The notes under the pieces: generated by a model
Told to the model about the DNA's origin: nothing
The model's input: the letters and a program-made list of their open reading frames with translations, nothing else
The model's database searches: none
In this document: one piece after another, positions 3-21,473 of the stretch
How the letters are laid out: every line of letters begins with the position of its first letter
Numbering within the stretch: the stretch's first letter is position 1
Position numbers and translations under genes: made by a program
Origin: a virus
IMG/VR virus record: IMGVR_UViG_3300009104_000134
Coordinates: 1 to 21,776 of that record
DNA: 21,776 nucleotides
Direction: 5' to 3' (one strand)

Positions 3-470
3 GAAGCTATTGTACGAGAAGAGATACGTAATCTTATTAGAGAACATCTTAATATTACTAGTGAACATGTGCAGGTAACTGTCAATGATACATCTAAGAC
101 GGAGTCCCAATATGAGTATGAATTTCCACGCGAAGGTAAAACACGCCGTAATGCGGAGGAAATGGCATTACACAGGCAAGAGAAACTACTTGGACGCAGA
201 CTTACTCCGGAGGAAAAGGGAGAAGTCAAAGCTAAACTACACATGGACGACTCAGCTGAAAATACTGCTAAAGAAGCAGCTATTAAGAAAGCAAGGATAG
301 ATAAGATAGCTGAAGAAGGTATCAAAGCAGCTAACGAAGAACTAAAGCTAGAAGCTGAAAAACTAGCTAAAGCTCCTGAAAGCGGAGAAAAAGTTATAAT
401 TGAAGAAGAAATACCGGAAGTAAAAGAAGATAATTTACCTCAACTTAACCCTTCACTATTTAACAAATGA
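3..470 (+). CDS. Charged hypothetical protein, 5' end outside the window
   Basis: The function is not recognised. The first start codon in the window is a GTG at 69, but the frame stays open back to base 3 (22 more codons) and nothing like a Shine-Dalgarno precedes the GTG. The gene therefore probably starts upstream of the window and is listed as 5'-partial. The visible 156 residues are very rich in Lys and Glu, with a helical, coiled-coil-like middle (Ala/Lys/Glu periodicity) and an acidic tail ending in LNPSLFNK. No signal peptide, membrane segment or catalytic motif is visible. The stop codon overlaps the next start (ATGA at 467-470), so the two genes are probably translationally coupled. 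It is transcribed toward the late operon. In N4 the genes facing the polymerase gene are early or middle genes, so a middle-gene product is a reasonable guess, no more. Confidence 0.6.
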   Translation, partial: EAIVREEIRNLIREHLNITSEHVQVTVNDTSKTESQYEYEFPREGKTRRNAEEMALHRQEKLLGRRLTPEEKGEVKAKLHMDDSAENTAKEAAIKKARIDKIAEEGIKAANEELKLEAEKLAKAPESGEKVIIEEEIPEVKEDNLPQLNPSLFNK

Positions 471-751
471 ATACTAAATTCGATAAAGACAAGTATTATA
501 GGAATCTTGAACTAGTCCAACAAATGAAAGACGAAAAGGAAAAAGAACAAGCAATATACGAACTAAACGCTCCTATTCCTGATAGCACTCCAAAAGGACT
601 TACAACGAAAATAAAAGCTTTTTTCATAGCTGCTTTGATAATAGCAGTAGCTTTAATTATCTTAGCGGGTTCTGTAGTGATTATTCCGACTATCCTAGTT
701 ATGATAATGTTTTATTTACTATTCTACGCTGTAAAATTATCAATTAAATAA
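467..751 (+). CDS. Small membrane protein, 94 aa
   Basis: The first half (residues 1-45) is highly charged and should be cytoplasmic. The second half is a long hydrophobic stretch (about residues 49-90) with two likely membrane helices, separated only by a short turn near VVIIPT. The start ATG overlaps the stop of the preceding gene (ATGA) and has no separate ribosome binding site, so expression probably depends on coupling to the upstream gene. The 3' end overlaps the stop region of the convergent giant gene by 12 bases. Size and hairpin topology would fit a holin-like or membrane-remodelling protein. There is no endolysin or spanin beside it to support a lysis role, so it is called only a membrane protein. 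Confidence 0.65.
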   Translation: MNTKFDKDKYYRNLELVQQMKDEKEKEQAIYELNAPIPDSTPKGLTTKIKAFFIAALIIAVALIILAGSVVIIPTILVMIMFYLLFYAVKLSIK

Positions 752-3700
752 ATCCCTACCTTCATTCTTTAGAATATCGAATAGGGTAACGTTATTAGCT
801 TCGTCAAATAAATCATCTGTTTGAAGAAGATTTGGAGTAAATTTACCTGCTAACCATGAACTATTTACGTTACCTAAAGTAGGTATCCCAGTTGCACCCT
901 GGATAGCAGCCGACAGTGCTACTGATGTAGGACTACTTGCAGCTAATTTTCTAGAAGCTCTAGCATTCCGGAGATAGTAAGACAGAAATGATGTAGCTCC
1001 TACAGCTTCTAAAGTCTCTAACGCAGGAACTAAAGCTTCATCAAAAACTACAAATGCGTCTAAAGACTCGTGCATTACTTCATTAAAATCCCTTCCCTGT
1101 ACCTTAGTCCCATGCTCAATCATTACATACCTAGCTAAAAAGTCCGTCATTTGTACGATATGACGGGATATCTGATAAGGCTTACTGCCTTTAGTCATAA
1201 ATATAAATCTAGCTGCATCGCCTAATTCAGAAGGTATTTTATCTATATACTTCTGTGCTTGAGGAAAAGAGTATGGAATAGTCTTCTGTAATTTATTCAG
1301 CCATCCATCTGCTTGAGCATCATTAATATCCTCAACAATTAAAGAATTTAACCCAGCTTTACTGAGTCTATGTATTAAGTTACCTTGAATTCGATCATCT
1401 AACTCAGCTACTTCAATAGCTTCTGGGCTAGTATTTTTATCTAATTTTTGAGAATCTATTTCATGCTTAAGTTTTACACGCCGTTCAGTATCTTTACGGT
1501 ACTTGTTATACTCGTGTACACCTTCAAATATTTTATGAAATATGTAATCTAACGGTATCTTTCTCATCATAAGCTGATAAATATTAGACATCATATTACC
1601 TACAACTACTTTAGGCATAGCAATAACTACCCTGTTTTTACCGTAACCAACAGTCTGTTTAATTGCATGATGAGTTATTCCTGCAACTCTTTTACTAATT
1701 CTTTTCGTTGTAGTGCTCTCGTCCTGAAGCATTTTTAATTCAGATAGATCAAATGATTTATACCCAAAGACTTTATCAATTATGTCTTCTCTAATAAAAA
1801 ACCGACCATTCTTTGCATACTGTTTTATGTGATTCCTGACAGCCTCAGGTAACTTTCTATATCTATCAATATATGGAGAATCAGGATCCATAATATCGAT
1901 CCACTCTAATTGTGGGTTGGTTCCCATCAGATCTAGTTGCTCATATACAAGCAACTCTACAGTTCTCTTATCGCTTTCAATCGTCTCTCTACGATCAATA
2001 GCAGAAGATCTCATATGAGCAAATACATGATCTATTTGCAGATCTGGACGTAGAATCTGCTCAACATCCGAATGATTCATCATTACTCGATAGTCAACTA
2101 TATTATTCTGGGCATCCCTAAGCGGCGTCATTGTAGCTTCATTCTTCCACTTAAATGTAGTATTAGCTTTCGCAGACTTATTTTTAGCTTTAACAAATTT
2201 AGCTACCTCAGCTTGTATTATATAAAAATTAGGCTTACCTTTATTCGGTCCTTTTGTATGATGAAACTTAGGATCTCTAACTAGTATTTCAGTTAAGGTA
2301 GTACCCATATTACGCTGATTAGTTGTGGACATTACTCCAGATACATCTGTAACCTCTGGATTAGTACGAGTAACATACATAGTATCGATGGTTTGTCCAG
2401 GTACAACCTTCTTTACTGGATAGCTTTCAGAAAAACCTAGCTGTTTCATTTCCTTAACTTTATCTGCTCTATCCATTCTTATAGAAGTAAAATTATCTAC
2501 GCGCTCTACTATAAATCCTTTTACTATTTGTAATTCATTTCCTTCAAAATTCTCAGTAAGAACATTATTTTTATAAGTACGGTGGCTTTTAAGTAGATCA
2601 CTTATGCCATTACGATCAGGATCAGCTGCAAATTCTTTTCTAGCTAATTCTACAACAGCTCTGTTGTGTGAAGAATCCGTATAATCTAGTGCAGATAGAG
2701 TAGAGTACATATCTAGTAAGCGTATCTGTTCCTCGGTAGGCGCTTCCATATGATCCGTTGCAATAGAAGCCGCATTAGTAAATGCGTCATCTAACTTCCT
2801 GTTACCTGTAGCGATCCAATACCCTAGTTCTTTGGCGTAACTTAAAGCGGGGGATTTATGAGAAAGTCTTAGCTCTTTAGCTATCTGAGCTTTTAGTGTA
2901 TTTCTTCTGCCTTTTCTGTTATCTCCTATGAGATCCATAATTTCAGCAGGACTCATTTCCCATTCAGTGCCTTCATTTAAAAGTGCAGACAGATCAGCTT
3001 GGAAGAGAACTCGAGTTAACGCTACTTTAGTATCATTAGTTAACCCGTGCTTATCTCCTTCTTTAACTGATTTCCATATTCCTTCTATACCTTCGTCTTT
3101 ATTTCCATTAAACCAGTTCATGGTAAATGTTTCAGCTTGCTGACGAGCTTTGGAGATATTTACTTTGACATGAAGGAGCTGCTCAATCATTTCTTTAGTA
3201 AGAGCACCGTCTCCTATTTCATTAGCTATGCCTCTCATAGTTTTGTTTAAAGCGCCGTCTATCATTTGTCTAGCGCGTATAGTCCCTTCATTAGTGGCAA
3301 AGATATTAAATAATGTACCACTACCCATAGTAGCAGCTGCTCTGAGCATACTTTTTGGCTCTCCTGTTTTTCCTGCAATTTTAACAGCTATATCTTCTCC
3401 AAGCTGTTTGAAGAATTCATCTGCTTTATCTAATTGATTATACGTCTTGGTATTAAGCAGAGCTAACTTGCTCTCGTATTTAGCTTGAGTAGCTACTAAG
3501 TGCTCCGTGGCAGCCAGTATCTCTGCGAAAGCATTATCACCTTTAGCTTTATATGTTCTAGCTCCAAAAGCTTGTTTCAAGAAATTCATGATTTCCGTAA
3601 CTATAAACAGTATCTCATCTAGAATTCCTTCTCTTACGGCTTTAGGTTGCGTTTTAAGAAACTCAATCATTTGTCGATTGGTTGCGGCGTAAGCTAAAAA

Positions 3701-6700
3701 TTCATGTATCCTATTCTTCTCTCTACCTGCAAATACATAGTTGTATTGCTTCTTAGCCATGGCTTTGTCATTTGCAGAAGGATTGGTAATACCTGCTAGA
3801 AACACCTTGTAACCGGATCCTTTACCGTATTTAGCATCTAGTGCTCTTTTTGTTTGGAGATAGACTCTATCTACCCGATTAGCAATTAAAGGATTATCTC
3901 GTATAGCTAAAGCAGTAGTCGCATGTAATAACTCATGCACATAGACTTCCTGTGGGGATTGGTTAACGTTAAATGGAGACTGGTTACTTAACATCACTTG
4001 CATAGACTGATTGGCTATATCGTACTCGCCTTGAGTAATGCCATTAATTTCCTGAGTTGTTAATCTAATCCCGCCTATTTCAGTAATACCTTCTCCTAAA
4101 ATATCTAAAACGCTATCTAAAGTCTCCGTATGCCTGAGCATCTCCTGGGCACTGGCGTAATACTGATTTGAAAATTCTTTAAATTTATTGAATAATTTTC
4201 TGAAATTTCCTTCAGTAATATCGCCTAATTCTTTTCGTTCACTAGTAGGATCTTTTGGTAGATCGTCTATTGATTTTAACTTTTTGCCAATCTCGTCATC
4301 TATTGCATCCTGGATAAGAGGATCATTAATATTTTCTAAATTTTTTGTGAGTAGTTTATTTTCTGCTAGCTGTTCGCCAGTACCGAATTGAATATCATCC
4401 GTACCAACTAGTACAAGTCTATTTCTCGGTCTAGAAGTAGCAACGTATAGCGCTTTTACTCTAGTTAAAAAATCAGGACCCCATCTTTTAAGTTTTCCTG
4501 TTCTAGGGTCTATTTTTCTTATATCATCTTGTGCACTACGCATAATATTTTCATAGTCAACGTATACAGTATCGTAAGTGCTACCTTGCGCTTTGTGTGC
4601 ATTAATTAGATACGCTGCTCCTAAACCTTCTGTAAACATTTCAAGAGCCATTCTCTCTTCTTGCGTCTTCCTGTAAGTACCTCTCTCTTTCATCCTGTCT
4701 ATTATGTGCTGCTTAGAATCTTTATGTTCCAATACCAACGTATGTTCTTTTCCGTTATCTGTTTTAACTTTTAGAACAGATACAGTAATACGTGAATAAG
4801 TAGGAGCTTCATCCCCATAACCATCTTTAAAACTAGTATTTTTTTGTTCTTTAAGTTCTTCTACTACAGTTACTTCGTCTCCATTATTTAAATCCTCACT
4901 GCGTTTAATCATGCTACCTTTAATTTCTACTGCACTCTCGTCTATTACTATACGTTCTCCTACAAGAAAGGGTTTTGTTTCTACATCTCCAGCAAAAAAG
5001 TCATCAAAAAGTTCTGAACGAATTTTTTCACGAAGTTTTTTACTTCTCGAATGCTCTGCATTATTGTAATGAATGAATTTAATATTCTGCTCATTTACTG
5101 CTTGATTGAGTAGAACCCTTTTTTGTAATGGATCTGTTGCTTTTTCCGCTTGTTCTCTTAATTTTTTATCAGCATCTCTAGCAGCTTTATATTCATTAGT
5201 AAATGCCTTTATGGTAGCATCGGTAGCACCATCTTTTAAAGTACCTTCCATATACTCAACATTATCATTATTAATTATTGGCAAAACAAAAGACAGAGCT
5301 TTACTGCTCCATGTCTTTAGATATGTTTCATGCGTCTCATGAATACGTTCTGCTATATTCGCTAAGATATCCGTAATACCTAGAATAGGATTACCTGCAT
5401 CTTGCCTCATACGCTGGTTTAGTTTGGCGTAATGTTGCTTAGTATCTATATCCAATAATGGCTTTTTCTGCCCAATTTCCATGACAGTATCGAATACTTT
5501 AGAAACATCTACTTTGCCAACTAATAGTCCTTCTTCATTAGGTCTATCTTTTTCTATAGGTGGTAGTTGAACATTATCCCCCATAAATAATAAACGTATC
5601 TTCTGCTTTCTAGCTAGTAGAATCAAACCCGCTGTATGCTGTTCATTAACCATTGAAGCTTCGTCAATAACAATTAGTTTAACTCCTGCTAGTTTTTCTT
5701 GTTGTTTTACAGCTGCTAAAGGATCTCTTTCAAATGAATGGTACCATTCTCCTTTTGAATTCTGTCTAGGTTTAGGTACTTCCCCAAGAAAACCGGCAAT
5801 TGTATCAAAATCTTGAGGACCGTATTTTTTAGCAGATTGTTTAATTACTCGTTTAGCTTTATGCGTAGGTAATGCAAACTTAACTTCCCCTAATTCTATA
5901 CCTAAATCAGTAACAGCCTTCTCAACAATGGTAGTCTTTCCTGTCCCGCCTCTTCCTTGCAATACAAATATTCTATTTTCTTCTTTAACTTCAGGCTTTC
6001 GTTTCTCTGCTAACTCTTCCGCAGTTGCTTTAGTTTTATTCCACCACTGCTTCATTTTATGCATGGCTCGCCATTGATCGTCATTAGCTTTGTTATCCCC
6101 GAATAAAACAGGTCTATCAGCTTCGCTACCTGGCAATGGTTCTTCATCATTTATTTTATTGCGTATTTCTTGCTCAGCCTGTTTACGAACACTCTCTTCA
6201 ATTGGATCCCCTTCAGGCTTAGGCATGTACAGTTGATGAGATACCATATCTCTTTCAAATAAAGCATCTCTCTGCTCTTTAACATTCGCCACTTCCGATC
6301 TAAATCCGATTATAAATCTATCAGCATTCTTAGGATCTTTCTTATCCGTTTTAGACTCTTCGTCTAGATACTGTTTATTTAATCTAGCAATTTCCTGTGC
6401 AGTTAACGTAGCTTTAACTTTTTCTAACTGCTTAAAAGTATTTTCCATAATGCTAAATTGCTTGTTGTACTTTAAGTACATCTTTCCATAAACATTAGAG
6501 ATAGAAGACAATTGCTCTGGGCTAGCCATGAATGCATCATGTAACGGTAGAACATTTGCATCCACGTTAAAAGTCTGAGTTAAAATTACAGAATCCATAT
6601 TTTGAATTTGTCGGATTAATGCACTTACTCCTGGTTCAATAAATTCTAACTGCTTAGCCATAATAGCTCGGTTAAACTTCTCACCGTCTACTAGTAATTT

Positions 6701-9700
6701 ATTTTCAATTTTGTCACTATCTAATCCTAGACTTATATTTTTCTCTCTAGCAGTCCGGATCTCACTTAGGTCAAGAGCACCGTCTGTATACTCATTACCG
6801 TCCTTATCTTTTAGTATTTGAGATAAAGGTCCAGCAACTTGAGGCAATACCTCAGACAGTTCCTCACCTACTTGAGTTACCATTTGACGTACTTGTTGGT
6901 CAGTTAATCTATTTATAGGTTTAAATTTTAGCTTATCCTCATCACTTAGCTTAGCTTTGTACTCTTCATTGAGCTGGTCTACTTTATCTTTATACGCTCT
7001 CTCATACCGCAACATAAACATACGATGCAGCATTTGCCCCATTTTAATTAGGGAATTCCTAGAGTCCCTGGTTTTTCCTAGCATGGAATCTAAACCATAG
7101 CTAAATCTAGGCTCTAAAGTCCTGCCAATTACTTTAGTTAATTCCGCGTCATTAAAGTTATACAAAGCCTTTCCATTACGTACATCTAATGCTTTACCGT
7201 CTATTAATAGATTTTTATATCTTTCTTTAGGAGATATTTCTCTTCCGTCTTTTCCTTTTATGGTTGTTTTACCTTCAAATGCTCCTAATTTTTCCAACGA
7301 CTCTAGAAACTCATCGATTCTCATGTCCATCTCACCTAGAATACGCTGGGCTTCTCTTTCAGCTAATGGACCTTCATCTTTAATAATGTTGTCAATATTA
7401 GTGAGCATCTCTTGGTATTCAGTATGTAACGCACTAACTTGTTCGTAAATACCATCGACAACATCTGATGCAACTCCTCGAGAAATACTCTCAGTACCTC
7501 CTCCGTACATGAAAATCATAAAAGGATATTTAACTGTTTTACGCATTTCTTTAGTGTAGCTATACATAGCTGGATCTAAAGATTTTAACGCCGCATCTCT
7601 ACTATTATATAATTTCCTGTACTTCTCTAATTCCTCCCTGTTCTCCTTCTTTTGCCGTTCGCTTAACTTTTCTCCCCTTTTTGGGGTATGGTAATTAACT
7701 CCTTTTTCATGAACAAATCCATCTTTCCATGCAGTATCTTCATACCATTTTAATGCTTTATTAGATGTAGCCCCGGTTTTAATATGCCCAATTAATGTCA
7801 TATACACATCAGGCTTAGTAGGATCGTGCTGCGCATTAACATTAAAGTAGTTTCCTACCTGATTTAGATGTGTTTCTAAATCGTCTGCATCCTCAAACAT
7901 TGGGAATTGCATAAGGTTCATAGCAAACCCATTAGTAATTCCATCAATTTCCATTGCTATATCAGACTTAAATTCTGCTACTCCAATGCCATCGCCATTA
8001 GGCATGTAGTTAGCTAATGCTGTAATAGCAGAGATAAGACCTATACTCGCTTCCTCGTAACGCTCTTTATTTTTAATTGCTGATAAAGCTTCTGCTAATT
8101 TGTTAGCTGCTTCTTTATTATTTTTATTTTGTTTAAGTTGCTGTAATGCTTTTACAGCATCTTGTACATGTCCATCATTGATGATGTAATCAAATTCAGT
8201 TTCGGCGTAGGATAGTTTATTTTTATCAATATCTAATCCAAAATTCTGAGCAACAGCTAATTTAAATTTCCAAAGATTTTCTTTGCTGTAAGTTTGTGGT
8301 TCCCAGGATCTTAATAGATGTCTACTAACTTTACTATTTTGAGGATTAATTCGGCCCTGTTGCATGACCCTATGCTGATTCTGTAGCCGATAGGAAAAGT
8401 AGAATTCCTGCAATAGCCCTTCTTCATTAGCTTCTAGCAAGTGATCTAAATCATTATTCTTATCTCTATTAGCCGCTTCTGCAGAGTCCCGCTGTCGTTG
8501 ATGTAATTCTACTCCCTCTATAGGAATTACGCCCATCAACTGTTCCAACACAGCTCGATTACCCCCAGCTAATGCAACTACTGAATCCATAGATTCTGCA
8601 GTAGTCCACTTAGCATTATGTAATTTCTTAAGAGCTTTTAGTACTTTACGTGGTACTTTTTTGAAAGCTGTTTTAATACGGTTGGTAGTATCTACAGGTT
8701 TTTGAAGAACTTCTCCATATTCTTCAAATTCAATTTCTAATTTATCTGTTAGCTCTTCTAAAGATTCTTTACCTTCTTTAGATACCTGAGGAACTTTTTT
8801 ATTTTTAGTTTCTGGGAATAAAAGATATCGATAACTGGTTTTATCATCAGTATTGTTGTAATTTCTATCGTCTTTTTTAGCTTGGTCAAAATTCCATATT
8901 TTATTTTCTATGGTAAAGGAAGCACCCGAATCTGTTCCTGCAGCTATATCTAAAGCCATCATTCCTAGAGCAGGGATTAGGTTCTTGTAGTATAGATCGG
9001 CGCCTTCTTGAGTCAACGTAGGATCATCTAAAGCTATTTTCTTAGCTGATAATTGCAATAGGGATGCGACATCTCTACCTATACCATCAGCCGTATCATT
9101 AAAGCTAAGACCTAACCCCTTTAACTCCCGTTCTTCATCATGAGTTAAGTCTCTTTTTCCACTAACTAAAAACTGCTTCTTTTCCCACTCTGAAGTAAAT
9201 CTGGTATTAGTTGAGCTTCTAGTTTTAAAAGACAGTACTCCAATAAACATACCTAGTAGTACCTGATCTGGAAGTACTCCTATAGAATTAGCTGGATCTT
9301 TTTCATCCGTACGGAGTAGTAGACTTAATGGCTCTCTTAAAGCATAGCTACGTTCTATCAAACGCTCTACGGGCACTGGCTCCGCCATGCCCTTGAGCGT
9401 AGCTTTACCATCAGTAATTGATTCTATCTTATAAAGCTTATTAGGATCTTCTGCGTCTATAATACGTACAGATCTTCCTACTTCTAATTTGTTAAAAGCT
9501 ATTTTGTTATATCGTTTCTTAAAATTGGCATAGCCATTGGCTATATAATTGGCGCTGTTTTTAGAAAGACCTAATCCTCTAAGTGATTTCTTAAGCTTAA
9601 TTACAGAAAACTCACCAACTGTAATGTTGCTGTGCTTGCCTGAATCAACATCTTCTTGAGTCCAAGTAAATGCTGTATCTTCAAGAGTATGAAGACCCGG

Positions 9701-12700
9701 TGTATCCAAGTCTTTTCCTACCTGTACTAGATCTATAAATAAAGCGTTAAGAAGACCTAGCGTTTTTTCCTTACTACCTGCTAAAGCCGCAGTAACTATA
9801 GGCCAGTACTTCTTAACAGAGCTAGTTATAAAATCTTGTATTTTACCTGCTTTAGTTTTTGTTTCGGTCTCTGCGTCTGTTCCTGTTTCTTGAGTAGGTT
9901 GCTCAGCAGAATCAGGAGATGGTTCAGTAGCTTCAGTAGTTTCAGGAGGTACCTCATCTGATTCCACAGGTTGTTTATCGAGGTTTTTAAGGTAGGCGAT
10001 CCTGTCAAGAATTTCTTGTTTTCTTTTATCTCTTTCATCTGGTGTACTCCTTACTATGTCTCCTTTATCTGTTTCTGCTTTTTCTTCGTCAAGAATTTTT
10101 TGATATTCTGCTTCAAGTTCTGTTATTTCATCTTGAATAGTTTTTCCTTTAGGTGCTTCTTTTTTCTTAGCTTTAGGATCTGCAATATCTTCTATAGCTT
10201 CATCTGTTATTTCTTCTACAGGTGCTTTAATTTTGTCTTTTATCTGACTTAATCCCTCGACAAATTCCTTATCCTTTTTTTGTTTATATGCTCGTCTATC
10301 TAAGTTCTTTGCTATAGAACTTTTATCAAAGCTTTCCACCGCAGTAAGAGCACTCTTACCTAATTCTACTTCATCTTCAAGTACTCGAATTAGTCTTCCA
10401 GACTTCTGTGGACTAATTTCCCAAATAAAGCTTATACCTTCATCTACTTCTTTTCTTTTCTGCCTTTCGGCCTCATAAGCTTTCTTGGACATTTTAGCAA
10501 CAGTGTAGTTCATCTTACGACTATTTCCAGATTCTTTATCTCCTGCTACCGTCCATACTTCGTCCTTACCTAAAGTTCCAGATTGCGAGTTTTTATATGC
10601 TTCTTGGAATGCAGCCAGTTTGTTAGTGAGATTTGTGGCATGTGTCTGCATGGCTGCGAATACAGTACCAATTTCTTGTTGTAGTAATTTTGGAGCTTTT
10701 TTATCAGGATTTCTAAATAAATCTATTATTTGATCTCGATAAGCATGTAACCCTTTAAATCGTTTGTCTTCCCCTTGAACAACTTCACCATGTACATCTG
10801 CAAAATCTTTATCTTTACGTTTATTTTCCAGTTTCTTTTTATCTTCTTGGGCCTTGAGTACAGCTTTCAAATAAGCTTTAGTATCTGGATCTGTTTCAGT
10901 TTCAATTAATTCTTTTAGTTTTTTAGGATCTGCAGTCTGTGAATCAGAGAAAGCCTCAGGACCACTAAATAATTTATCAGTTACAGTTTTAGTTACAGTT
11001 CCTTCGGAATCTAAAACTCCTTTTTTAGTTAGTTCATCTATCTTCTTACGTACAACTATTTTTTCTTCATCATTTAAATCTCTATTAGCAATTTCGTTTA
11101 ATTTGTTTAATAACAGTTCTTGTCTGAGAGGATTAACTTCTTCAGGAGTTAATTTAGCAAACTCCGCTTTACGCAACTCATCCAGCTTTTGCATACCTTT
11201 CTGTCTATTAGCATCGAACTGTCTAGTTTCGTTTAGATATTTTTGATACTCAGTAGGACTATCAAAATCTTCTTGAGTTAGTCGTCTACCTTCATCATTT
11301 GTCCATTCTTTAGGTTCTTCTTTTAATTTAATAATATTACTAATTACTTTACCGTCTTCTGTTTCCTGAACTCTTTCTAACCCACTATCGTCATCAGGTA
11401 CATAATCATCAGCTACATCTATTGCAACTTCTTCTCCAGATTCTAAAGGAGCCAGCCCAGGATCTACGTCAGCTGCTATAATCGCTACCTCATCTAATAA
11501 GATAGGAAGTTCACCTTCTGCTAGTTTGGTGCCTTTACCTTGTAAGATAGCAGCTGTTTTTTCGTCATCTTTAAGATCTGTTTCTAGAACTTTTTCAACT
11601 TTAGATCGTTCTTCAACTAGCTTAGTTCTGAGGAATTTTAATTGTTTACTGTTAAGCTTGGTTTCTAATTTATCTTCTAAAGCTTTTTTATCATTCTTAA
11701 GTTTTTCTATTTTATCGGGATCTTTAGTCTCAGCCTCTTCAGCAGCTTTTATTAGCTGGTCTGTTTGAGCTATCTTTTGACGTATACCTAAGCTAAGAAA
11801 ATCATTGTCTTTAAGCTTTATAGTTTCCCCGGAGTCTTTTACTAACTGGTCTTTTTGCTTTTTTAAATGAGCCAGTTCCTTCGCTAGTATTGCTTTGGCT
11901 TCTACTATCGCGTCTTTATGTTTAAATTCCTTAGCTCTTAGATCATCATAGATCTGTCCAAACCGCACATTATCGCTTTCAATTCCTCCAGGAATCTCTT
12001 TAACTTCGACAGATAGATCAGTTATTTGTCTATCTAAATCATTTATGCGCTCCTCGGCAGTAACTCTATCTAACTGCGCATTTATTTGATCTAATCCATT
12101 CTGAGCTTCTTGTCTTCTTCTCTTTGTTCTAGTAGCTCTATTTACGCCAGCTTCAGTAAGTTTTTTAGTTACTACACCAGCTCCTACAGTAGCTTGAATA
12201 GTTGGCCCAGCAAGAGTTCCTCTAATAGTAGTTGATAGCCCTTCTTCATATGATAATACTTCTCCAGTCATACCTGCACGTTCAGCTAATTCACTACCTA
12301 GTTCTTGGACGCCTTCAGCTACTTGAGGAAGTGCAAGTTTTGTAACAGGTTTAACTAGTAACAAATCTGCAGCTTTACCAGTTACTGTACTTTTCAATCC
12401 TCTATTAATTGAATCTCCTACTTTATTCATCCACTCTATGGGATTTTTAACTAATGGTTTTCCAGTAAGTATTCCTTTCATGTAAGAAATACTTGCTTTT
12501 TCCAAAGCTAAACTAAATGCAGCAGATATCTCAATTCTAGCTTCTATTTCAGGAGTTAACTCTTGATTAGGATTATCTTTTATCCATTGATCCTTCATGG
12601 TTTTAGCTTTACCTATAGATAAGCTAGCTAGCATACCTATTTGGACAGGAATATTTCCGAAAGCTAGTGCCAATGTGAATCCTATACTGTCAAATCCTTC

Positions 12701-14842
12701 TTCTAAAAAGATCCCTACGTTATCAAATGCATATAATAGAGCATCCCCTGTACCTTCTTTTTCTGCAATAAGCTGTAAAGCCGTAGCAGCTCCAGCCATA
12801 TGTTTTCTATTTACTGGAAAATACTTGCTATAGCTTTCAGCCATTTCTTTAATATTAGCTCTACCTTCTGGAGTAGTAGCAAATGCACTAGCAAGAAGCT
12901 CAGCAGGGTAACGTATACCTTGCATAGTTCTGTTGAAATATTCCCCAAAAGAACCGTCAGCTGGAGCATTTGGATCTGCTTCCCAATTAGCTTTATTATA
13001 ATCATGATATGATTTAGCTATGACTTCAGGTAACCCACTAATAGGAACTCCCTCACGAGTCCTAACTGACCATGTTCCATCTTTGTGCTTAGTAGCATTG
13101 CCGTATGTTTCTATAACCGGACTGGTGCTTTCTAACGGAGCTAATTCAGTTTCCTTTTTAATTGCCTTCTCAATATTTGGATCCGTTGCTAATAAAGACA
13201 TTGGATCTAAGCTGGAGGATCCTAGTAAGGCATCCGCAGATGCACTAGGCCCCAAAACCGTAGCCGTGTAGTCAAGATCATAATTTCCTTGTCTACGAGC
13301 AGGTGTAGAAGGAAGTAATGGAGGAGGTTTAGTCTCGTCTACAATAGGTTCTTCTATAAAACGTCTAACTGGTTTTTTAGTAGGTTCTGGAGTGCCTACT
13401 GTAATAAATTCGTCAGAAGGTTGTATGTCAAGATTAGTGCTTATATTTGTAAGCCAATTTTTATTTAATGGATGCGCGTTAACAGGTGCATAAATTTCGC
13501 TATACCACTTTAAAAATTCTGAAGTAAAGTTCCCGTCTTTAATAGCTGAATTTTTTTCTGGATTGGCATTAATTAAACCTCGTTCTTGAGCACCAGCTAC
13601 GTCTGATCTAGATCCTCCTGCTTCCCACATTTTTATATGCCGGTCAATATGTTTAGATACTTCTGTTCTAGCTTCTTCAGGCGATATAGTTTCACCTGCT
13701 GCCAGCCGTTTTTCAAAAGCTTCACTAAAATAGCCATAAGGGATGCGGGCATCCTTCTTACCTTCAGCTATATTAATAGCATCTAATAGCCGCTCTTTAG
13801 TTTTTATAGTTTGTTTTGATGAAATGTCAGTTACTACAGGAGGTTTTGTTGGAGCTTCGGTAGGCTCTTCTATGCTGATTCCTAATGTTTTACCATACTC
13901 AGCAACAAACTTTTTAACTGCTTCTTCATTTTTATTTGCTGTATCTATACTATCGGGGCTTTCATCAATCCACATTAAATTGGGATACTTTTCAGCAAAA
14001 GACTTGAGAGCTACTTCTAATTCAGCTTCTGAAGCGGGTAAATTAAGCTGTTGGAGTGTTTTTTTAACACCAGATTTAAAAGCGTCAGGAGCTTTAGATA
14101 CACCTTCAAAAAATGCATCGGTTGCAGCAGTCCATTTATCTGCATCAAACAACGTATCTCCAGCTTTACTAATCCCTTGAACAAATTGATCGCCTGCACG
14201 ACTTAATTTGTCCATTACTGTTTCTTCAGTTTTTGGAGGGTTATCTTTTATCCAGTCAATTAAATCTTTAACATTATTGTTAAGATATTGTGTAGCTTGC
14301 TGACTATTCAATCCAGTAGCGCCTTTAGCCGTCATAAACTCTTTAGCGGCTACTTCTAAACTTTCCGCTCCTTTATCTAGTCCTAATAAAACTAAATCCT
14401 CAGTCTTTGCGATAGATGACAATAAACTATCCCATTCTTCAGGCATGTTTACTGGAGCCACAGGCTCCTGAGCTTTTTTAGCTACTTTATCGGCTATAGC
14501 TCCAGGAGTGTTACGATCCTGCTCTGTAATTTCCCCGTCTTCAAAATCATTTACATCAAGGGCTAAAGCAGGCTCTTGACTTGGGGTATCAGGAATTTCA
14601 GTATTATCTGGGGATTGGATATAAGCTTTTTGTGCAGCTACTCCCGAAGTATTTTTATGTCCATTGCCAAATACTTCAGTAGCTACTTGCAGCTTCTGCT
14701 GATTAAGTCTAGCTTTAGCTTCTAGTAAGCGATTAGTTAAGGAAGTTGCTTTAGGATCTGATGGTACTTGAGTGTAGTCAGGATCTAGAGTAGCAGTCTC
14801 ATCTCCAAACAGATCCCGCTTAATGCTATCAAATTTTCGCAT
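740..14842 (-). CDS. Giant N4-type virion RNA polymerase fused to SF1 helicase, metallopeptidase and murein hydrolase domains (4700 aa)
   Basis: One uninterrupted 4700-codon frame, longer than N4 vRNAP (about 3500 aa). Order of parts: N-terminal helical region (1-345); lysozyme/transglycosylase-like segment (350-470); Pro-rich linker (about 480-560); hydrophobic/glycine-rich segments (690-905); coiled-coil-like Lys/Glu-rich region (905-1620); acidic P/T/E linker (1623-1666); single-subunit RNA polymerase (1668-2914); Dda/RecD-like SF1 helicase (2915-3490); HExxH metallopeptidase (3580-3730); long C-terminal region to 4700. By analogy with N4 it should be packaged in a few copies per virion and ejected with the DNA to transcribe early genes. 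It is the last gene of the late operon. The ATG at 14842 is preceded by only a weak GGTGAT and there is no alternative in-frame start nearby; the gap to the previous gene is 33 bases. Polymerase and helicase assignments rest on complete motif sets; the other domains are less certain. Confidence 0.9.
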   Translation of the reverse strand: MRKFDSIKRDLFGDETATLDPDYTQVPSDPKATSLTNRLLEAKARLNQQKLQVATEVFGNGHKNTSGVAAQKAYIQSPDNTEIPDTPSQEPALALDVNDFEDGEITEQDRNTPGAIADKVAKKAQEPVAPVNMPEEWDSLLSSIAKTEDLVLLGLDKGAESLEVAAKEFMTAKGATGLNSQQATQYLNNNVKDLIDWIKDNPPKTEETVMDKLSRAGDQFVQGISKAGDTLFDADKWTAATDAFFEGVSKAPDAFKSGVKKTLQQLNLPASEAELEVALKSFAEKYPNLMWIDESPDSIDTANKNEEAVKKFVAEYGKTLGISIEEPTEAPTKPPVVTDISSKQTIKTKERLLDAINIAEGKKDARIPYGYFSEAFEKRLAAGETISPEEARTEVSKHIDRHIKMWEAGGSRSDVAGAQERGLINANPEKNSAIKDGNFTSEFLKWYSEIYAPVNAHPLNKNWLTNISTNLDIQPSDEFITVGTPEPTKKPVRRFIEEPIVDETKPPPLLPSTPARRQGNYDLDYTATVLGPSASADALLGSSSLDPMSLLATDPNIEKAIKKETELAPLESTSPVIETYGNATKHKDGTWSVRTREGVPISGLPEVIAKSYHDYNKANWEADPNAPADGSFGEYFNRTMQGIRYPAELLASAFATTPEGRANIKEMAESYSKYFPVNRKHMAGAATALQLIAEKEGTGDALLYAFDNVGIFLEEGFDSIGFTLALAFGNIPVQIGMLASLSIGKAKTMKDQWIKDNPNQELTPEIEARIEISAAFSLALEKASISYMKGILTGKPLVKNPIEWMNKVGDSINRGLKSTVTGKAADLLLVKPVTKLALPQVAEGVQELGSELAERAGMTGEVLSYEEGLSTTIRGTLAGPTIQATVGAGVVTKKLTEAGVNRATRTKRRRQEAQNGLDQINAQLDRVTAEERINDLDRQITDLSVEVKEIPGGIESDNVRFGQIYDDLRAKEFKHKDAIVEAKAILAKELAHLKKQKDQLVKDSGETIKLKDNDFLSLGIRQKIAQTDQLIKAAEEAETKDPDKIEKLKNDKKALEDKLETKLNSKQLKFLRTKLVEERSKVEKVLETDLKDDEKTAAILQGKGTKLAEGELPILLDEVAIIAADVDPGLAPLESGEEVAIDVADDYVPDDDSGLERVQETEDGKVISNIIKLKEEPKEWTNDEGRRLTQEDFDSPTEYQKYLNETRQFDANRQKGMQKLDELRKAEFAKLTPEEVNPLRQELLLNKLNEIANRDLNDEEKIVVRKKIDELTKKGVLDSEGTVTKTVTDKLFSGPEAFSDSQTADPKKLKELIETETDPDTKAYLKAVLKAQEDKKKLENKRKDKDFADVHGEVVQGEDKRFKGLHAYRDQIIDLFRNPDKKAPKLLQQEIGTVFAAMQTHATNLTNKLAAFQEAYKNSQSGTLGKDEVWTVAGDKESGNSRKMNYTVAKMSKKAYEAERQKRKEVDEGISFIWEISPQKSGRLIRVLEDEVELGKSALTAVESFDKSSIAKNLDRRAYKQKKDKEFVEGLSQIKDKIKAPVEEITDEAIEDIADPKAKKKEAPKGKTIQDEITELEAEYQKILDEEKAETDKGDIVRSTPDERDKRKQEILDRIAYLKNLDKQPVESDEVPPETTEATEPSPDSAEQPTQETGTDAETETKTKAGKIQDFITSSVKKYWPIVTAALAGSKEKTLGLLNALFIDLVQVGKDLDTPGLHTLEDTAFTWTQEDVDSGKHSNITVGEFSVIKLKKSLRGLGLSKNSANYIANGYANFKKRYNKIAFNKLEVGRSVRIIDAEDPNKLYKIESITDGKATLKGMAEPVPVERLIERSYALREPLSLLLRTDEKDPANSIGVLPDQVLLGMFIGVLSFKTRSSTNTRFTSEWEKKQFLVSGKRDLTHDEERELKGLGLSFNDTADGIGRDVASLLQLSAKKIALDDPTLTQEGADLYYKNLIPALGMMALDIAAGTDSGASFTIENKIWNFDQAKKDDRNYNNTDDKTSYRYLLFPETKNKKVPQVSKEGKESLEELTDKLEIEFEEYGEVLQKPVDTTNRIKTAFKKVPRKVLKALKKLHNAKWTTAESMDSVVALAGGNRAVLEQLMGVIPIEGVELHQRQRDSAEAANRDKNNDLDHLLEANEEGLLQEFYFSYRLQNQHRVMQQGRINPQNSKVSRHLLRSWEPQTYSKENLWKFKLAVAQNFGLDIDKNKLSYAETEFDYIINDGHVQDAVKALQQLKQNKNNKEAANKLAEALSAIKNKERYEEASIGLISAITALANYMPNGDGIGVAEFKSDIAMEIDGITNGFAMNLMQFPMFEDADDLETHLNQVGNYFNVNAQHDPTKPDVYMTLIGHIKTGATSNKALKWYEDTAWKDGFVHEKGVNYHTPKRGEKLSERQKKENREELEKYRKLYNSRDAALKSLDPAMYSYTKEMRKTVKYPFMIFMYGGGTESISRGVASDVVDGIYEQVSALHTEYQEMLTNIDNIIKDEGPLAEREAQRILGEMDMRIDEFLESLEKLGAFEGKTTIKGKDGREISPKERYKNLLIDGKALDVRNGKALYNFNDAELTKVIGRTLEPRFSYGLDSMLGKTRDSRNSLIKMGQMLHRMFMLRYERAYKDKVDQLNEEYKAKLSDEDKLKFKPINRLTDQQVRQMVTQVGEELSEVLPQVAGPLSQILKDKDGNEYTDGALDLSEIRTAREKNISLGLDSDKIENKLLVDGEKFNRAIMAKQLEFIEPGVSALIRQIQNMDSVILTQTFNVDANVLPLHDAFMASPEQLSSISNVYGKMYLKYNKQFSIMENTFKQLEKVKATLTAQEIARLNKQYLDEESKTDKKDPKNADRFIIGFRSEVANVKEQRDALFERDMVSHQLYMPKPEGDPIEESVRKQAEQEIRNKINDEEPLPGSEADRPVLFGDNKANDDQWRAMHKMKQWWNKTKATAEELAEKRKPEVKEENRIFVLQGRGGTGKTTIVEKAVTDLGIELGEVKFALPTHKAKRVIKQSAKKYGPQDFDTIAGFLGEVPKPRQNSKGEWYHSFERDPLAAVKQQEKLAGVKLIVIDEASMVNEQHTAGLILLARKQKIRLLFMGDNVQLPPIEKDRPNEEGLLVGKVDVSKVFDTVMEIGQKKPLLDIDTKQHYAKLNQRMRQDAGNPILGITDILANIAERIHETHETYLKTWSSKALSFVLPIINNDNVEYMEGTLKDGATDATIKAFTNEYKAARDADKKLREQAEKATDPLQKRVLLNQAVNEQNIKFIHYNNAEHSRSKKLREKIRSELFDDFFAGDVETKPFLVGERIVIDESAVEIKGSMIKRSEDLNNGDEVTVVEELKEQKNTSFKDGYGDEAPTYSRITVSVLKVKTDNGKEHTLVLEHKDSKQHIIDRMKERGTYRKTQEERMALEMFTEGLGAAYLINAHKAQGSTYDTVYVDYENIMRSAQDDIRKIDPRTGKLKRWGPDFLTRVKALYVATSRPRNRLVLVGTDDIQFGTGEQLAENKLLTKNLENINDPLIQDAIDDEIGKKLKSIDDLPKDPTSERKELGDITEGNFRKLFNKFKEFSNQYYASAQEMLRHTETLDSVLDILGEGITEIGGIRLTTQEINGITQGEYDIANQSMQVMLSNQSPFNVNQSPQEVYVHELLHATTALAIRDNPLIANRVDRVYLQTKRALDAKYGKGSGYKVFLAGITNPSANDKAMAKKQYNYVFAGREKNRIHEFLAYAATNRQMIEFLKTQPKAVREGILDEILFIVTEIMNFLKQAFGARTYKAKGDNAFAEILAATEHLVATQAKYESKLALLNTKTYNQLDKADEFFKQLGEDIAVKIAGKTGEPKSMLRAAATMGSGTLFNIFATNEGTIRARQMIDGALNKTMRGIANEIGDGALTKEMIEQLLHVKVNISKARQQAETFTMNWFNGNKDEGIEGIWKSVKEGDKHGLTNDTKVALTRVLFQADLSALLNEGTEWEMSPAEIMDLIGDNRKGRRNTLKAQIAKELRLSHKSPALSYAKELGYWIATGNRKLDDAFTNAASIATDHMEAPTEEQIRLLDMYSTLSALDYTDSSHNRAVVELARKEFAADPDRNGISDLLKSHRTYKNNVLTENFEGNELQIVKGFIVERVDNFTSIRMDRADKVKEMKQLGFSESYPVKKVVPGQTIDTMYVTRTNPEVTDVSGVMSTTNQRNMGTTLTEILVRDPKFHHTKGPNKGKPNFYIIQAEVAKFVKAKNKSAKANTTFKWKNEATMTPLRDAQNNIVDYRVMMNHSDVEQILRPDLQIDHVFAHMRSSAIDRRETIESDKRTVELLVYEQLDLMGTNPQLEWIDIMDPDSPYIDRYRKLPEAVRNHIKQYAKNGRFFIREDIIDKVFGYKSFDLSELKMLQDESTTTKRISKRVAGITHHAIKQTVGYGKNRVVIAMPKVVVGNMMSNIYQLMMRKIPLDYIFHKIFEGVHEYNKYRKDTERRVKLKHEIDSQKLDKNTSPEAIEVAELDDRIQGNLIHRLSKAGLNSLIVEDINDAQADGWLNKLQKTIPYSFPQAQKYIDKIPSELGDAARFIFMTKGSKPYQISRHIVQMTDFLARYVMIEHGTKVQGRDFNEVMHESLDAFVVFDEALVPALETLEAVGATSFLSYYLRNARASRKLAASSPTSVALSAAIQGATGIPTLGNVNSSWLAGKFTPNLLQTDDLFDEANNVTLFDILKNEGRDLFN
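923..1825 (-). other. C-terminal region of giant protein (about residues 4340-4640)
   Basis: This is a mixed helical region with features I associate with the C-termini of large phage polyvalent or ejection proteins. They include an asparagine-rich hydrophobic helix (VVVGNMMSNIYQLMM), a later LARYVMIEHGTK helix, and a closing SFLSYYLRNARASRKL segment before a low-complexity tail. In N4 the C-terminal third of vRNAP is needed for packaging the protein into virions, so a capsid-targeting role is plausible. No catalytic motif is visible. Confidence 0.4.
3653..4105 (-). other. Domain in giant protein: zincin metallopeptidase of polyvalent-protein type (about residues 3580-3730)
   Basis: VYVHELLHATTA gives an HExxH zinc site (H3636, E3637, H3640). 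About 75 residues later HEFLAYAATN supplies a candidate third ligand (E3714, possibly H3713). This HELLHA...HEFLAYAxT layout is the one found in metallopeptidase domains of large phage polyvalent proteins. Possible targets are the giant protein itself or host proteins met on entry; the sequence does not say which. Confidence 0.68.
4373..6100 (-). other. Domain in giant protein: Dda/RecD-like SF1 helicase (about residues 2915-3490)
   Basis: A full SF1 motif series is visible. Q motif: NDDQWRAM (Q2923). Motif I: GRGGTGKTT (G2963-T2971, K2969). Motif Ia: ALPTHKAKRVI. Motif II: VIDEAS (D3060, E3061). Motif III: MGDNVQLPP (D3089, Q3092). Motif IV: NQRMRQ (R3144, R3146). Motif V: NAHKAQGSTYDTVYVD (K3417, Q3419, G3420). 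Motif VI: YVATSRPRN (R3471). Between IV and V is a long insert with a beta-rich stretch (YSRITVSVLKVKTDNGKEH) resembling the SH3-like insert of T4 Dda. This family unwinds or translocates 5' to 3' using ATP. The domain starts about 154 residues after polymerase D2769; N4 mini-vRNAP ends 155 residues after D951. Confidence 0.88.
6101..9841 (-). other. Domain in giant protein: N4-type single-subunit virion RNA polymerase (about residues 1668-2914)
   Basis: All four signature motifs of the T7/N4 polymerase family are visible in order. The T/DxxGR-type motif reads MQQGR, with R2164 (the first position is Met here). Motif A reads EIDGITNGFAMNLM, with metal-binding D2300. Motif B reads RKTVKYPFMIFMYG, which is R-x3-K-x7-YG with R2434, K2438 and Y2446. 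Motif C reads LPLHDAFM, with D2769. Spacings are 136 (R to D), 138 (A to B) and 331 (B to C). Recalled N4 mini-vRNAP positions R424, D559, R666, K670, Y678 and D951 give 135, 111 and 281, so this is the N4 type rather than the compact T7 type. Substrate is single-stranded or hairpin promoter DNA in N4; promoter type here is unknown. Confidence 0.88.
9845..9976 (-). other. Acidic Pro/Thr/Glu linker before the polymerase domain (residues 1623-1666)
   Basis: About 44 residues consist almost only of E, D, P, T, S, Q and A, from QPVESDEVPPETTEATEP through the run ending ETKTKAG. They separate the Lys/Glu-rich coiled-coil-like region from a more globular-looking sequence beginning KIQDFITSSVKKYW. 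The composition indicates a disordered hinge and marks the likely N-terminal boundary of the RNA polymerase module. Confidence 0.7.
12128..12775 (-). other. Hydrophobic, glycine-rich segments of giant protein (about residues 690-905)
   Basis: This stretch contains several hydrophobic segments, for example around IGFTLALAFGNIPVQIGML and SAAFSLALEKASISYM. A VAEGVQELGSELAE helix follows, then the Gly/Ala-rich LAGPTIQATVGAGVV. Similar amphipathic and glycine-rich regions occur in phage ejection proteins that insert into the host envelope. A membrane-contact role during ejection is inferred, not shown. Confidence 0.45.
13433..13795 (-). other. Domain in giant protein: lysozyme/transglycosylase-like murein hydrolase (about residues 350-470)
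   Basis: The segment runs INIAEG (candidate catalytic Glu E360), then IPYGYF, a helical stretch with a conserved-looking W (KMWEAGG), then FLKWYSEIYAPVN and HPLNKNWLTNI. This AEG...PYG...W..G...YaP...LNKNW pattern matches, from memory, a family of small phage and bacterial lysozyme-like/transglycosylase domains. Cutting murein from inside the ejected apparatus is a known job of T7 gp16, whose N-terminus has a transglycosylase domain. The N-terminal placement here is parallel. The match is by eye, so the fold is an inference. Confidence 0.5.
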
Positions 14843-14875
14843 ATCACCATTATCTGTAGGGATTATTTTTTAGGA

Positions 14876-16771
14876 TCATTCATCCGTCAAATCACTTGCA
14901 GGAGTACGTATACTGCCGAGCCAATTATATACTTTGCGGCCCGCATCTCTAACAATATCCATCTCACTTCTAAAACCTACCTGTGGTTTTGATTGATTAG
15001 AAGATGGGGAGAAGAAATTTTTAGCTCCTGTTTTTAACGAGTCTAGCATACTTCCTTCTATTTCCTTATTCTGCCTTACAGCTGCAATCTTATCTTCAAG
15101 AAGTGTTGCTCCTTTTGCCTGTGACTCTGCGCCTCTAGTAGAAACTCCTGGAAGAAATTCTTGTAACGCTTCTAACAATTGGTTATCACTAAGGGAAGTC
15201 ATATCATCATTTTCGCTCATTCCCATTAATGTATAGAATGGATCATCGAATGGATTCCAATTGTTACCGTCTTTATCAATTCCTCCTTGAGATGTAAACA
15301 TCTGCATAATTGCACGTTTTAAAGTATGTTCTTGAGATTTGTTATCTAAATTATATTCACCAGTCTCTGGGTTTCTAAACATACGGTCAATACGGCGAAC
15401 AGTCTGCCGAACATGATTATACAGTTCTCCTAAATTAGTATCTCTGAGTTTTTGCTCGTCAGGATCGTCAGTTGGTGGCATTGTTTTATTAATCTTTGTT
15501 TGTAATCTATCAGCTACAACAGACCATACATTTCCCGCTCTTTCCATATCACGTAATTGGTTACGAACTTCTTTTTTGTACTGCAGTGCCTCTTTAAAAT
15601 TTTCTACTTCATCTTGAGTTCTAAATTGAGCAATTCGTTTGCCCGATTGAAATATGGCTCCTAGTTGACCATCTTGAATATCTTTAGCAACTTTTTTATC
15701 TATAATAGAGGTAGGTAACCATTTAAATTTTTCATGATACTTTTCAATCATAAGTTTTCTAAACGCATGTTGATTGTTTAGTGAGCCTTGACGAACATCA
15801 TTTGGATCTCCCTTAGCCTTTGTTATCATATCTGACCACGTACTAAATGCGTCTACTTTCATACCTTCTAGCGCTCTAAGTAAAGGACGTTCTATAAATT
15901 TAGCTTGGTCTGGTTTCAATTCATGCTGATGGCGTTGAAGATAATTGCTAGCATTATTAATAGCCGTTATTAATTGCTCATTAGTACCGTGATGTAATGC
16001 ATCAGTAACTATACCAGCCTGCTTTTCTAATTCTTTATCTACCGTACTTGCCTTGGTCTCTTTTTTAGCAACTCGCTCAAACATAGAATTGTATTTAGAT
16101 CTAGCAACAATGCCTTTATATGCATTTTTAATTGCTGATGTACTAGCGCCTTTGTTGTTCTTTTGTACTTGATCCAATACATCTTGTTCAATTCTCTCTA
16201 ACACATCTGGTGTAAGAGACCGTTCATCTAAGGGGTTACCTCCATGCTTCCTAATCAATGAATCATCTATGGTAACTTGAGTCCTTGCTAGTAATTCATT
16301 AGCAAACGGCTGGAGAATCTTATCATCATCCTTAATATTATTCTCCTGCCTGAATGTAGCCATTTCATTTAAATATGCTTTCTTATCTTGGTCAGTTTTA
16401 AGAGTTCTCAAATGAGCTAACTCATTCATTACCTCAGTTTTATCCCGTACTTTCCTTCTTGCAGGATCTAGTTTAGCTAGATCTGTTTCCATTGTATTTA
16501 GTACGTCCTCACCTACATAACTAGAACCAAAAAGACCAGCGTTAGCTGGGTCATTTCTAATTTTCTCTCGAGCTATCGCATCGTCAGCTGGAGACAGTAA
16601 TTCCATAGCTTGTCTTTTTCTAATATCTGCTACTACATCTTGCCCTTCGTCTATACTTGAAGCAACTTGAAGTAAACCTTCAGTTTGTTGTTTATTTGCT
16701 GTAGCCGCAGCTCGTAATGCTGCATCAAAAGAAGGAGCAGCTTGACTTCTCCATGTAGGAACATTTGCCAT
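14876..16771 (-). CDS. Helical internal virion (ejection) protein, 631 aa
   Basis: The protein is soluble, strongly helical, rich in Lys, Glu, Gln and Ala, and has no membrane segment or catalytic motif. It opens with MANVPTWRSQAAPSFDAAL, then Ala-rich helices. The rest is long alternating charged helices (for example around residues 95-150 and 390-440) and a tail ending in a DLTDE-type acidic end. Size, helicity and position directly before the giant gene parallel the T7 gp15 and N4 gp51 slots, so an internal core or ejection role is likely by context. The ATG at 16771 has GGAG nine bases upstream inside a 13-base gap after the 216-aa gene, supporting this start and a shared mRNA. I do not recognise a specific enzymatic function. 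Confidence 0.75.
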   Translation of the reverse strand: MANVPTWRSQAAPSFDAALRAAATANKQQTEGLLQVASSIDEGQDVVADIRKRQAMELLSPADDAIAREKIRNDPANAGLFGSSYVGEDVLNTMETDLAKLDPARRKVRDKTEVMNELAHLRTLKTDQDKKAYLNEMATFRQENNIKDDDKILQPFANELLARTQVTIDDSLIRKHGGNPLDERSLTPDVLERIEQDVLDQVQKNNKGASTSAIKNAYKGIVARSKYNSMFERVAKKETKASTVDKELEKQAGIVTDALHHGTNEQLITAINNASNYLQRHQHELKPDQAKFIERPLLRALEGMKVDAFSTWSDMITKAKGDPNDVRQGSLNNQHAFRKLMIEKYHEKFKWLPTSIIDKKVAKDIQDGQLGAIFQSGKRIAQFRTQDEVENFKEALQYKKEVRNQLRDMERAGNVWSVVADRLQTKINKTMPPTDDPDEQKLRDTNLGELYNHVRQTVRRIDRMFRNPETGEYNLDNKSQEHTLKRAIMQMFTSQGGIDKDGNNWNPFDDPFYTLMGMSENDDMTSLSDNQLLEALQEFLPGVSTRGAESQAKGATLLEDKIAAVRQNKEIEGSMLDSLKTGAKNFFSPSSNQSKPQVGFRSEMDIVRDAGRKVYNWLGSIRTPASDLTDE

Positions 16772-21403: not shown

Positions 21404-21416
21404 TTCATTCTCCTTT

Positions 21417-21434
21417 GAGAAACTGTCATTTCTC
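21417..21434. repeat. Short inverted repeat before the 208-aa gene
   Basis: Arms GAGAAA and TTTCTC (6 bp) with a 6-base loop lie immediately upstream of the ribosome binding site of the 208-aa gene and about 6 bases past the U-rich tract of the terminator. A mRNA processing or translational control hairpin is possible. Confidence 0.4.
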
Positions 21435-21439
21435 GAGTT

Positions 21440-21473
21440 AAAAGAGAAGCCCCCCGAGGGCATAGCCCTCGGG
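21440..21473 (-). terminator. Intrinsic terminator after the major capsid gene
   Basis: On the minus strand a perfect 9-bp stem CCCGAGGGC/GCCCTCGGG with a TAT loop is followed by GGGCTTCTCTTTT. The GC-rich stem stands out in an AT-rich genome and begins 16 bases past the capsid stop codon. The U-tract is interrupted by C residues and separated by GGGC, so read-through into the late operon is likely. That would suit high capsid and lower downstream expression. Confidence 0.8.

Follow-up and report, generated by a model that had tools for sequence, protein, structure and literature searches.

A Dda-like helicase module at the polymerase hinge of an N4-type virion RNA polymerase from an uncultured phage

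The virion RNA polymerase (vRNAP) gp50 of phage N4 is one of the closest described relatives of the protein analyzed here, which is encoded in IMG/VR virus record IMGVR_UViG_3300009104_000134 and carries a superfamily 1B (SF1B) helicase module between its RNA polymerase (RNAP) domain and its C-terminal domain (CTD). The window spans this record in full (21,776 bases) and represents part of a single virus genome. In N4 gp50, the RNAP domain (residues 1007-2101) is followed by a flexible linker (2102-2123), an HExxH subdomain termed C1 (2124-2375) and subdomain C2, which extends to residue 3500; when docked, the CTD inhibits the RNAP, and the authors of the structure speculated about a possible role of the CTD in binding or unwinding DNA during early transcription (PMC12633501). 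The early promoters of N4 require supercoiling by host gyrase, as the initial annotation of the window had stated, and also the host single-stranded DNA-binding protein (SSB), while genome entry past the first 500 bp depends on transcription by vRNAP (PMC4496689). The opening of N4-type early promoters and the uptake of the genome are only partly understood. Apart from inhibition, no role of the N4 CTD is known.

Polymerase and helicase domains of the window protein

A single open reading frame (ORF) of 4,700 codons, with an ATG start and zero internal stops, occupies positions 740-14842 and is read from 14842 on the minus strand; unless noted, all window coordinates below refer to this strand. 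By homology, this ORF is an N4-type vRNAP, the counterpart of N4 gp50 with an internal helicase. Its PHROGs match was phrog_2206, virion RNA polymerase (4.6e-189), and a BLASTP comparison revealed that the vRNAPs of phi50-12, PT15-A5, KPP21 and N4 aligned on both sides of the window helicase. The single-subunit RNAP domain, the homologue of N4 mini-vRNAP, was assigned to residues 1668-2815 (positions 6398-9841) by homology, profile and model. A profile built from 31 members of the RNAP family retrieved the N4 vRNAP structures from the PDB with E=3e-158. An AlphaFold2 model of residues 1681-2821 reached a predicted local distance difference test score (pLDDT) of 84.8, and its ten best PDB matches were all N4 mini-vRNAP or vRNAP entries (E 1e-19 to 5e-17), with N4 mini-vRNAP as the top match (E 1e-19, template modeling score 0.62); the T7 and mitochondrial RNAPs followed after the N4 entries.

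The five catalytic residues of N4 vRNAP (R1421, D1556, K1667, Y1675 and D1948, corresponding to R424, D559, K670, Y678 and D951 of mini-vRNAP) had the window counterparts R2158, D2300, K2438, Y2446 and D2769 in an alignment of 34 vRNAPs, in which four of the five catalytic columns were invariant. The invariant positions included R2158 (positions 8369-8371), the motif A aspartate D2300 (7943-7945) and the motif C aspartate D2769 (6536-6538), and motif B extended from K2438 to Y2446 (7505-7531). The initial annotation had assigned residues 1668-2914 to the polymerase; the catalytic residues were indeed found there, but the RNAP homology ended near residue 2815, and residues 2816-2914 (positions 6101-6397) formed a poorly conserved linker between RNAP and helicase.

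The helicase module extended over residues 2915-3490 (positions 4373-6100). All of the SF1 motifs examined were present, as the initial annotation had claimed: motif I or Walker A (GRGGTGKT, residues 2963-2970, positions 5933-5956), motif Ia (PTHKAK), motif II or Walker B (IDEASM, residues 3059-3064, positions 5651-5668), motif III (GDNVQLPP, residues 3088-3095, positions 5558-5581), motif V (AHKAQGST, residues 3415-3422, positions 4577-4600) and motif VI (YVATSRPRN, residues 3466-3474, positions 4421-4447). A search against Pfam identified AAA_30 at residues 2953-3100 (2.9e-17) and a weak UvrD_C_2 match at residue 3410, and the PHROG match was the Dda-like helicase family phrog_325 (1.4e-46, residues 2790-3487). 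A profile restricted to five fused helicases matched Leptospirillum Dda (9kwf, 5e-14), DSH9, RecD and Pif1 in the PDB, and a wider profile that included stand-alone phage Dda proteins matched T4 Dda (1.5e-19), RecD2 and Pif1. Judged by its sequence, the module is a complete SF1B helicase that is nearest to the Dda, RecD2 and Pif1 families.

The initial annotation had proposed structure prediction followed by a search against N4 mini-vRNAP and T4 Dda. This placed the polymerase on N4 mini-vRNAP, as described above, and also led from the helicase to T4 Dda, but through a weak model, which had an overall pLDDT of 51, with mostly 62-84 in the first RecA-like domain. Foldseek ranked T4 Dda first (3.6e-11), and the VIA-align superposition with T4 Dda showed a Z-score of 14.8 over 310 residues with a root mean square deviation of 12.8 Å, tied with DSH9 and Leptospirillum Dda. 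The fold search of the PDB was limited by the weak model, and other folds that are missing from its results carry no meaning. Because the model was weak, the identity of the helicase rests mainly on motifs and profiles. The Dda, RecD2 and Pif1 families are SF1B helicases that move in the 5'-3' direction, and by analogy the fused helicase would share this polarity and be an active ATPase.

We found the CTD homology, comprising the HExxH motif and C2, to begin near residue 3601. Because the RNAP homology had already ended near residue 2815, the alignments place the helicase between the two, as an insertion at the RNAP-CTD hinge rather than as a C-terminal tail. The CTD itself (residues 3601-4700, positions 743-4042) is homologous in sequence to N4 C1/C2 and carries near its start the zincin-like HExxH motif HELLH (residues 3636-3640, positions 3923-3937), for which the N4 equivalent is IHELVHA. 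At the other end of the protein, residues 1-1667 (positions 9842-14842) occupy the position of the N4 N-terminal domain (NTD) according to the N4 domain map (PMC12633501); this was the least conserved part of the window vRNAP, sharing 45-47% identity with the closer of its fused relatives. The gap between the RNAP and CTD homologies was 786 residues in the window; measured in the same way, it was 433 in N4 and had a median of 296 among the unfused relatives, in which gaps of 154 to 1,131 residues were seen. N4 vRNAP carries no helicase, as the initial annotation had stated, and has a linker of 22 residues at this site (PMC12633501). The window thus lacks the short flexible linker of N4; because hinge length varies widely in the family, the long hinge marks a variant, and its membership in the N4-type vRNAPs stands.

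Recurrence and probable exchange of the fused helicase

A record nearly identical to the window was not found, and among 50,697 records no cultured phage matched both the RNAP and the helicase parts. In the cultured phages, the RNAP part matched vRNAPs and the helicase part matched separate helicase genes, with a query coverage of at most 34% among the matches listed. When the RNAP-helicase segment was used as a single query sequence, viral and genome contigs gave no match, and profile-based scans were needed to find fused relatives. Profile scans of IMG/VR yielded 137 non-redundant vRNAP ORFs, 114 of which had the RNAP and CTD in one ORF; a helicase was present within only four of these 114, namely the window and records L007, L009 and L011. 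Two further records were L089, which is 5' truncated, and L008, which is cut at the Walker A region; both came from the same metagenome and may be halves of one genome. L196, L197 and L199 were recovered in addition by a scan with the fused helicases.

The survey of vRNAP homologues suggested in the initial annotation thus revealed the same fusion in a small set of uncultured relatives: besides the window, eight further metagenomic records carry the helicase or its start. Per-domain identity to the window was 45-79% for L007, L009, L011 and L089, and L196 and L197 were more distant. The helicase was C-terminal to the RNAP in all fused proteins. In L199, a contig of 90.8 kb, we observed the RNAP and helicase together in one ORF (2897-11368, plus strand) and the CTD in the next ORF (11362-15792, plus strand); the vRNAPs of L061, L069 and L035 were likewise split near the hinge. 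L092, which is close to the fused clade, had no helicase and a different hinge insert.

These records bear on whether the fusion was created by assembly or gene calling from two genes. The window is a metagenomic contig for which no near-identical record was found, as an artefact would predict; however, the same in-frame order was present in independent contigs from several metagenomes (L007, L009, L011, L089, L196 and L197). A chimera was ruled out on this basis, and we assign this explanation a negligible probability. The in-frame fusion of an N4-type vRNAP with a complete SF1 helicase, the central claim of the initial annotation, was therefore borne out by the single ORF, the homology, the motifs and the independent contigs.

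The ratio of nonsynonymous to synonymous substitution rates (dN/dS) was 0.26-0.37 for the full helicase module and 0.21-0.28 for the RNAP, at a synonymous rate near saturation; as estimated from these alignments, the helicase module is under purifying selection. A decayed or neutral insertion that is inactive would fit with the presence of sister vRNAPs without a helicase and with the long and variable hinge gaps of unfused relatives. However, the SF1 motifs were retained in every fused copy that covered them, dN/dS was well under 1, and the same helicase family occurred in three lineages, which makes such an insertion very improbable.

In the helicase trees, the fused helicases formed one clade (support 99/95), and the sister among the rows used was a protein from a Bacteroidota metagenome-assembled genome. 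This protein is a stand-alone SF1 helicase of 501 residues (L200, 4706-6208, plus strand), and it may hint at a source or host range. The stand-alone Dda proteins of N4-like phages formed a separate clade (100/100), and the trees ruled out an origin of the module from the phage's own stand-alone Dda. Record G001 carried a fused copy and, beside DNA polymerase, exonuclease and primase genes, a stand-alone Dda of 434 residues; because it carries both, the fused copy is not simply a relocated replication helicase. We also observed in G001 (L183, 6871-10839) a second set of DNA polymerase, exonuclease and gp2.5-like SSB on a 53-kb contig with N4-like genes, which points either to an unusual genome or to chimerism of the contig.

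The vRNAP trees placed the fused proteins in three positions: the window clade, a place next to the unfused L029 and L124 for L196 and L197, and a distant one for L199. The RNAP-domain tree was a quick version, in which L199 formed a long branch. Between lineages, helicase identity was 38-58%, compared with 22-30% for the RNAP and CTD; within the window clade, helicase identity was equal to or below that of the RNAP and CTD. The vRNAP of L011 belonged to the window clade, yet its helicase was more similar to the L196 helicase (58%) than to the window helicase (50%). Because inter-lineage helicase identity exceeds RNAP and CTD identity, we consider that the module has probably moved between polymerases, and the simplest reading of these comparisons is that vRNAP genes exchanged it at one and the same hinge. 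A single vertical gain in one clade was dropped as an explanation after L196, L197 and L199 were found in other vRNAP lineages, and one ancient fusion followed by many losses is less likely given the same identity values.

Possible roles of the fused helicase

In the reading that we favor, with chances that we judge to be close to even, the helicase acts in cis as a 5'-3' motor on the entering DNA, partnered with the RNAP in template exposure and genome uptake. In this view, the vRNAP, from an uncultured N4-type phage, would have received an SF1B module in its RNAP-CTD hinge. By homology with N4, the fused vRNAP would be carried in the phage head and would leave through the tail tunnel before the DNA, and its N-terminal part would remain at the inner membrane, such that polymerase and helicase would together encounter the first stretch of the entering genome. 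Driven by ATP, the helicase could expose or clear the single-stranded template needed by the vRNAP and help draw the genome in; a 5'-3' motor on the non-template strand would share the direction of transcription. A motor of about 570 residues in place of a 22-residue linker may also loosen the inhibitory RNAP-CTD contact. This reading draws on the complete motifs, the purifying selection, the presence of the module in several vRNAP lineages, its distinctness from the stand-alone Dda and the joint ORF of RNAP and helicase in L199, as well as on the dependence of N4 vRNAP on gyrase and SSB. A stronger form of this proposal, in which a cis-acting polymerase-helicase machine frees early transcription from host gyrase and SSB and the module is swapped as a hinge cassette, appears possible but doubtful to us.

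The membrane-anchored vRNAP could alternatively serve as a genome-entry motor that reels in the genome or unwinds its leading end, with no direct promoter opening. Helicases are DNA translocases by family, N4 entry after the first 500 bp needs vRNAP transcription (PMC4496689), and the N4 NTD inserts into lipid, with the vRNAP thought to stay at the ejectosome (PMC12633501). However, SF1B helicases move along single strands, whereas the genome enters as a duplex, such that a loading site would be required, and we regard this role as improbable.

Several findings weigh against the cis-acting reading. The sister vRNAPs, including that of L092, evidently function without a helicase. The residues that contact the promoter hairpin in N4 (K114, R119, W129, D901 and R904) were not conserved in the window, nor across the family. 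In the available stretches of the fused and unfused relatives, for which the genome ends are uncertain, a repeated N4-type GGA hairpin was not found by a scan that recovered two N4 promoters as a control. The hinge also hosts other modules whose role in transcription is not obvious. L197 contained an AlkB-like 2OG-Fe(II) oxygenase (PF13532, 1.3e-12) at residues 44-198 of its ORF (3-2195, plus strand), directly before the helicase, and L199 carried NADAR (PF08719, 4.9e-11) and an HEYVH motif ahead of the helicase. In L196, HExxH motifs at residues 2748 and 3575 flank the helicase, the extra one preceding it. The 5,963-residue vRNAP of L011 (12680-17992, plus strand) contained DUF7831 (3.5e-28) and several hundred unassigned residues between the helicase and the CTD. 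No confident known domain was identified in the hinge gaps of L020, L029 and L134 (900-1,131 residues), with a weak Peptidase_M90 match in L134. Given these varied modules, the helicase could be a separate cargo, and its position alone is weak proof of a role in transcription.

According to such a cargo explanation, the hinge of a polyvalent protein is a cargo bay, and the helicase acts apart from transcription, in repair, remodelling or nuclease protection, perhaps after being freed by the HExxH domain. The additional modules of L197, L199, L011 and L196 at the same hinge are consistent with this, as is the apparent cassette-like transfer of the helicase from one vRNAP lineage to another. Polyvalent proteins have been described as a class; in the passages found of the survey that describes them, N4 RNAPs occur with ART, lysozyme and PBECR domains, and HExxH domains are proposed to release other domains (PMC5512222). 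In contrast, L199 keeps its helicase in one ORF with the RNAP even though its CTD has become a separate gene, and every fused protein has the helicase on the C-terminal side of the RNAP. N4 vRNAP is also reportedly packaged unprocessed, according to the same passages (PMC5512222), such that cleavage before ejection is unsupported. We consider the cargo explanation the main alternative, serious but on balance unlikely. The sharing of a helicase family by three vRNAP lineages, together with the varied hinge modules, suggests an exchangeable site in a protein that is delivered into the cell. The hinge insertion, its sharing among uncultured relatives, its probable movement between lineages and the other hinge modules had all been missed in the initial annotation.

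The genes upstream of the window vRNAP had the order and strand of N4 gp51-gp56, ending in the major head protein. A 631-residue protein at the position of the ejection protein gp51 (14876-16771) was assigned by synteny only, without a family match, and a 216-residue protein at the position of the ejection protein gp52 (16785-17435) by synteny with little sequence support. The 916-residue protein at the position of the tail plug gp53 (17497-20247) matched phrog_2220 (3.9e-46), and two ORFs at the gp54 and gp55 positions (20253-21463) matched phrog_2050, virion structural protein, and phrog_2130. The C-terminal part of the major head protein, gp56 in N4 (21489-21776; phrog_1357, 1.9e-28), was cut at the record end. 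On the opposite, plus strand, two small ORFs (3-470 and 467-751) converged on the vRNAP gene.

Comparison with known systems

The window protein resembles the polyvalent proteins described by Iyer et al. in 2017, which, in the passages found, are giant multidomain proteins encoded in late-gene regions, combine RNAP with HExxH domains and are expected to enter the host with the DNA (PMC5512222). Several enzymatic domains, an HExxH motif and a late-gene or virion neighborhood were all found in the window. The helicases in those passages are SF2 SWI2/SNF2 proteins that occur with methylases, and a UvrD in a Streptomyces plasmid, whereas the N4 RNAPs there are without a helicase; no RNAP-helicase fusion occurs in the passages found (PMC5512222). 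The word "helicase" is absent from the 2025 N4 vRNAP structure paper, and literature searches, with subscription papers and preprints mostly outside their coverage and priority therefore unproven, returned no report of a vRNAP-helicase fusion. The suggestion in the initial annotation that the arrangement is undescribed holds for the cultured phages detected and the literature searched, and we consider the fusion a novel variant among polyvalent vRNAPs.

The helicase module resembles T4 Dda, RecD2 and Pif1 in its SF1 motifs, and its best profile and fold matches were Dda (T4, 3upu, and Leptospirillum, 9kwf), DSH9, RecD and Pif1. In contrast to phage Dda, with which it shares about 22-30% identity, the fused helicase is embedded in a polymerase and forms its own clade. 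The stand-alone Dda-like helicase of N4-like phages (G001, 13.7-15.0 kb) is also SF1B, and Dda-like by PHROG, but it is a separate gene in the replication block and belongs to a separate clade.

With N4 gp50 of the Schitoviridae, the window protein shares the RNAP fold, the five catalytic residues, the HExxH and C2 CTD, the gp50-gp56 gene order and the encoding by a giant single ORF. It differs in its length of 4,700 residues compared with 3,500, in the divergence of the hairpin-contact residues and, above all, in the presence of a 570-residue SF1B helicase at the site of the 22-residue N4 linker. A vRNAP that naturally carries a DNA motor exactly at the RNAP-CTD hinge offers a direct test of whether unwinding limits early promoter opening and genome uptake, and the fusion suggests that such phages may supply an engine of their own to open their DNA or pull it in.

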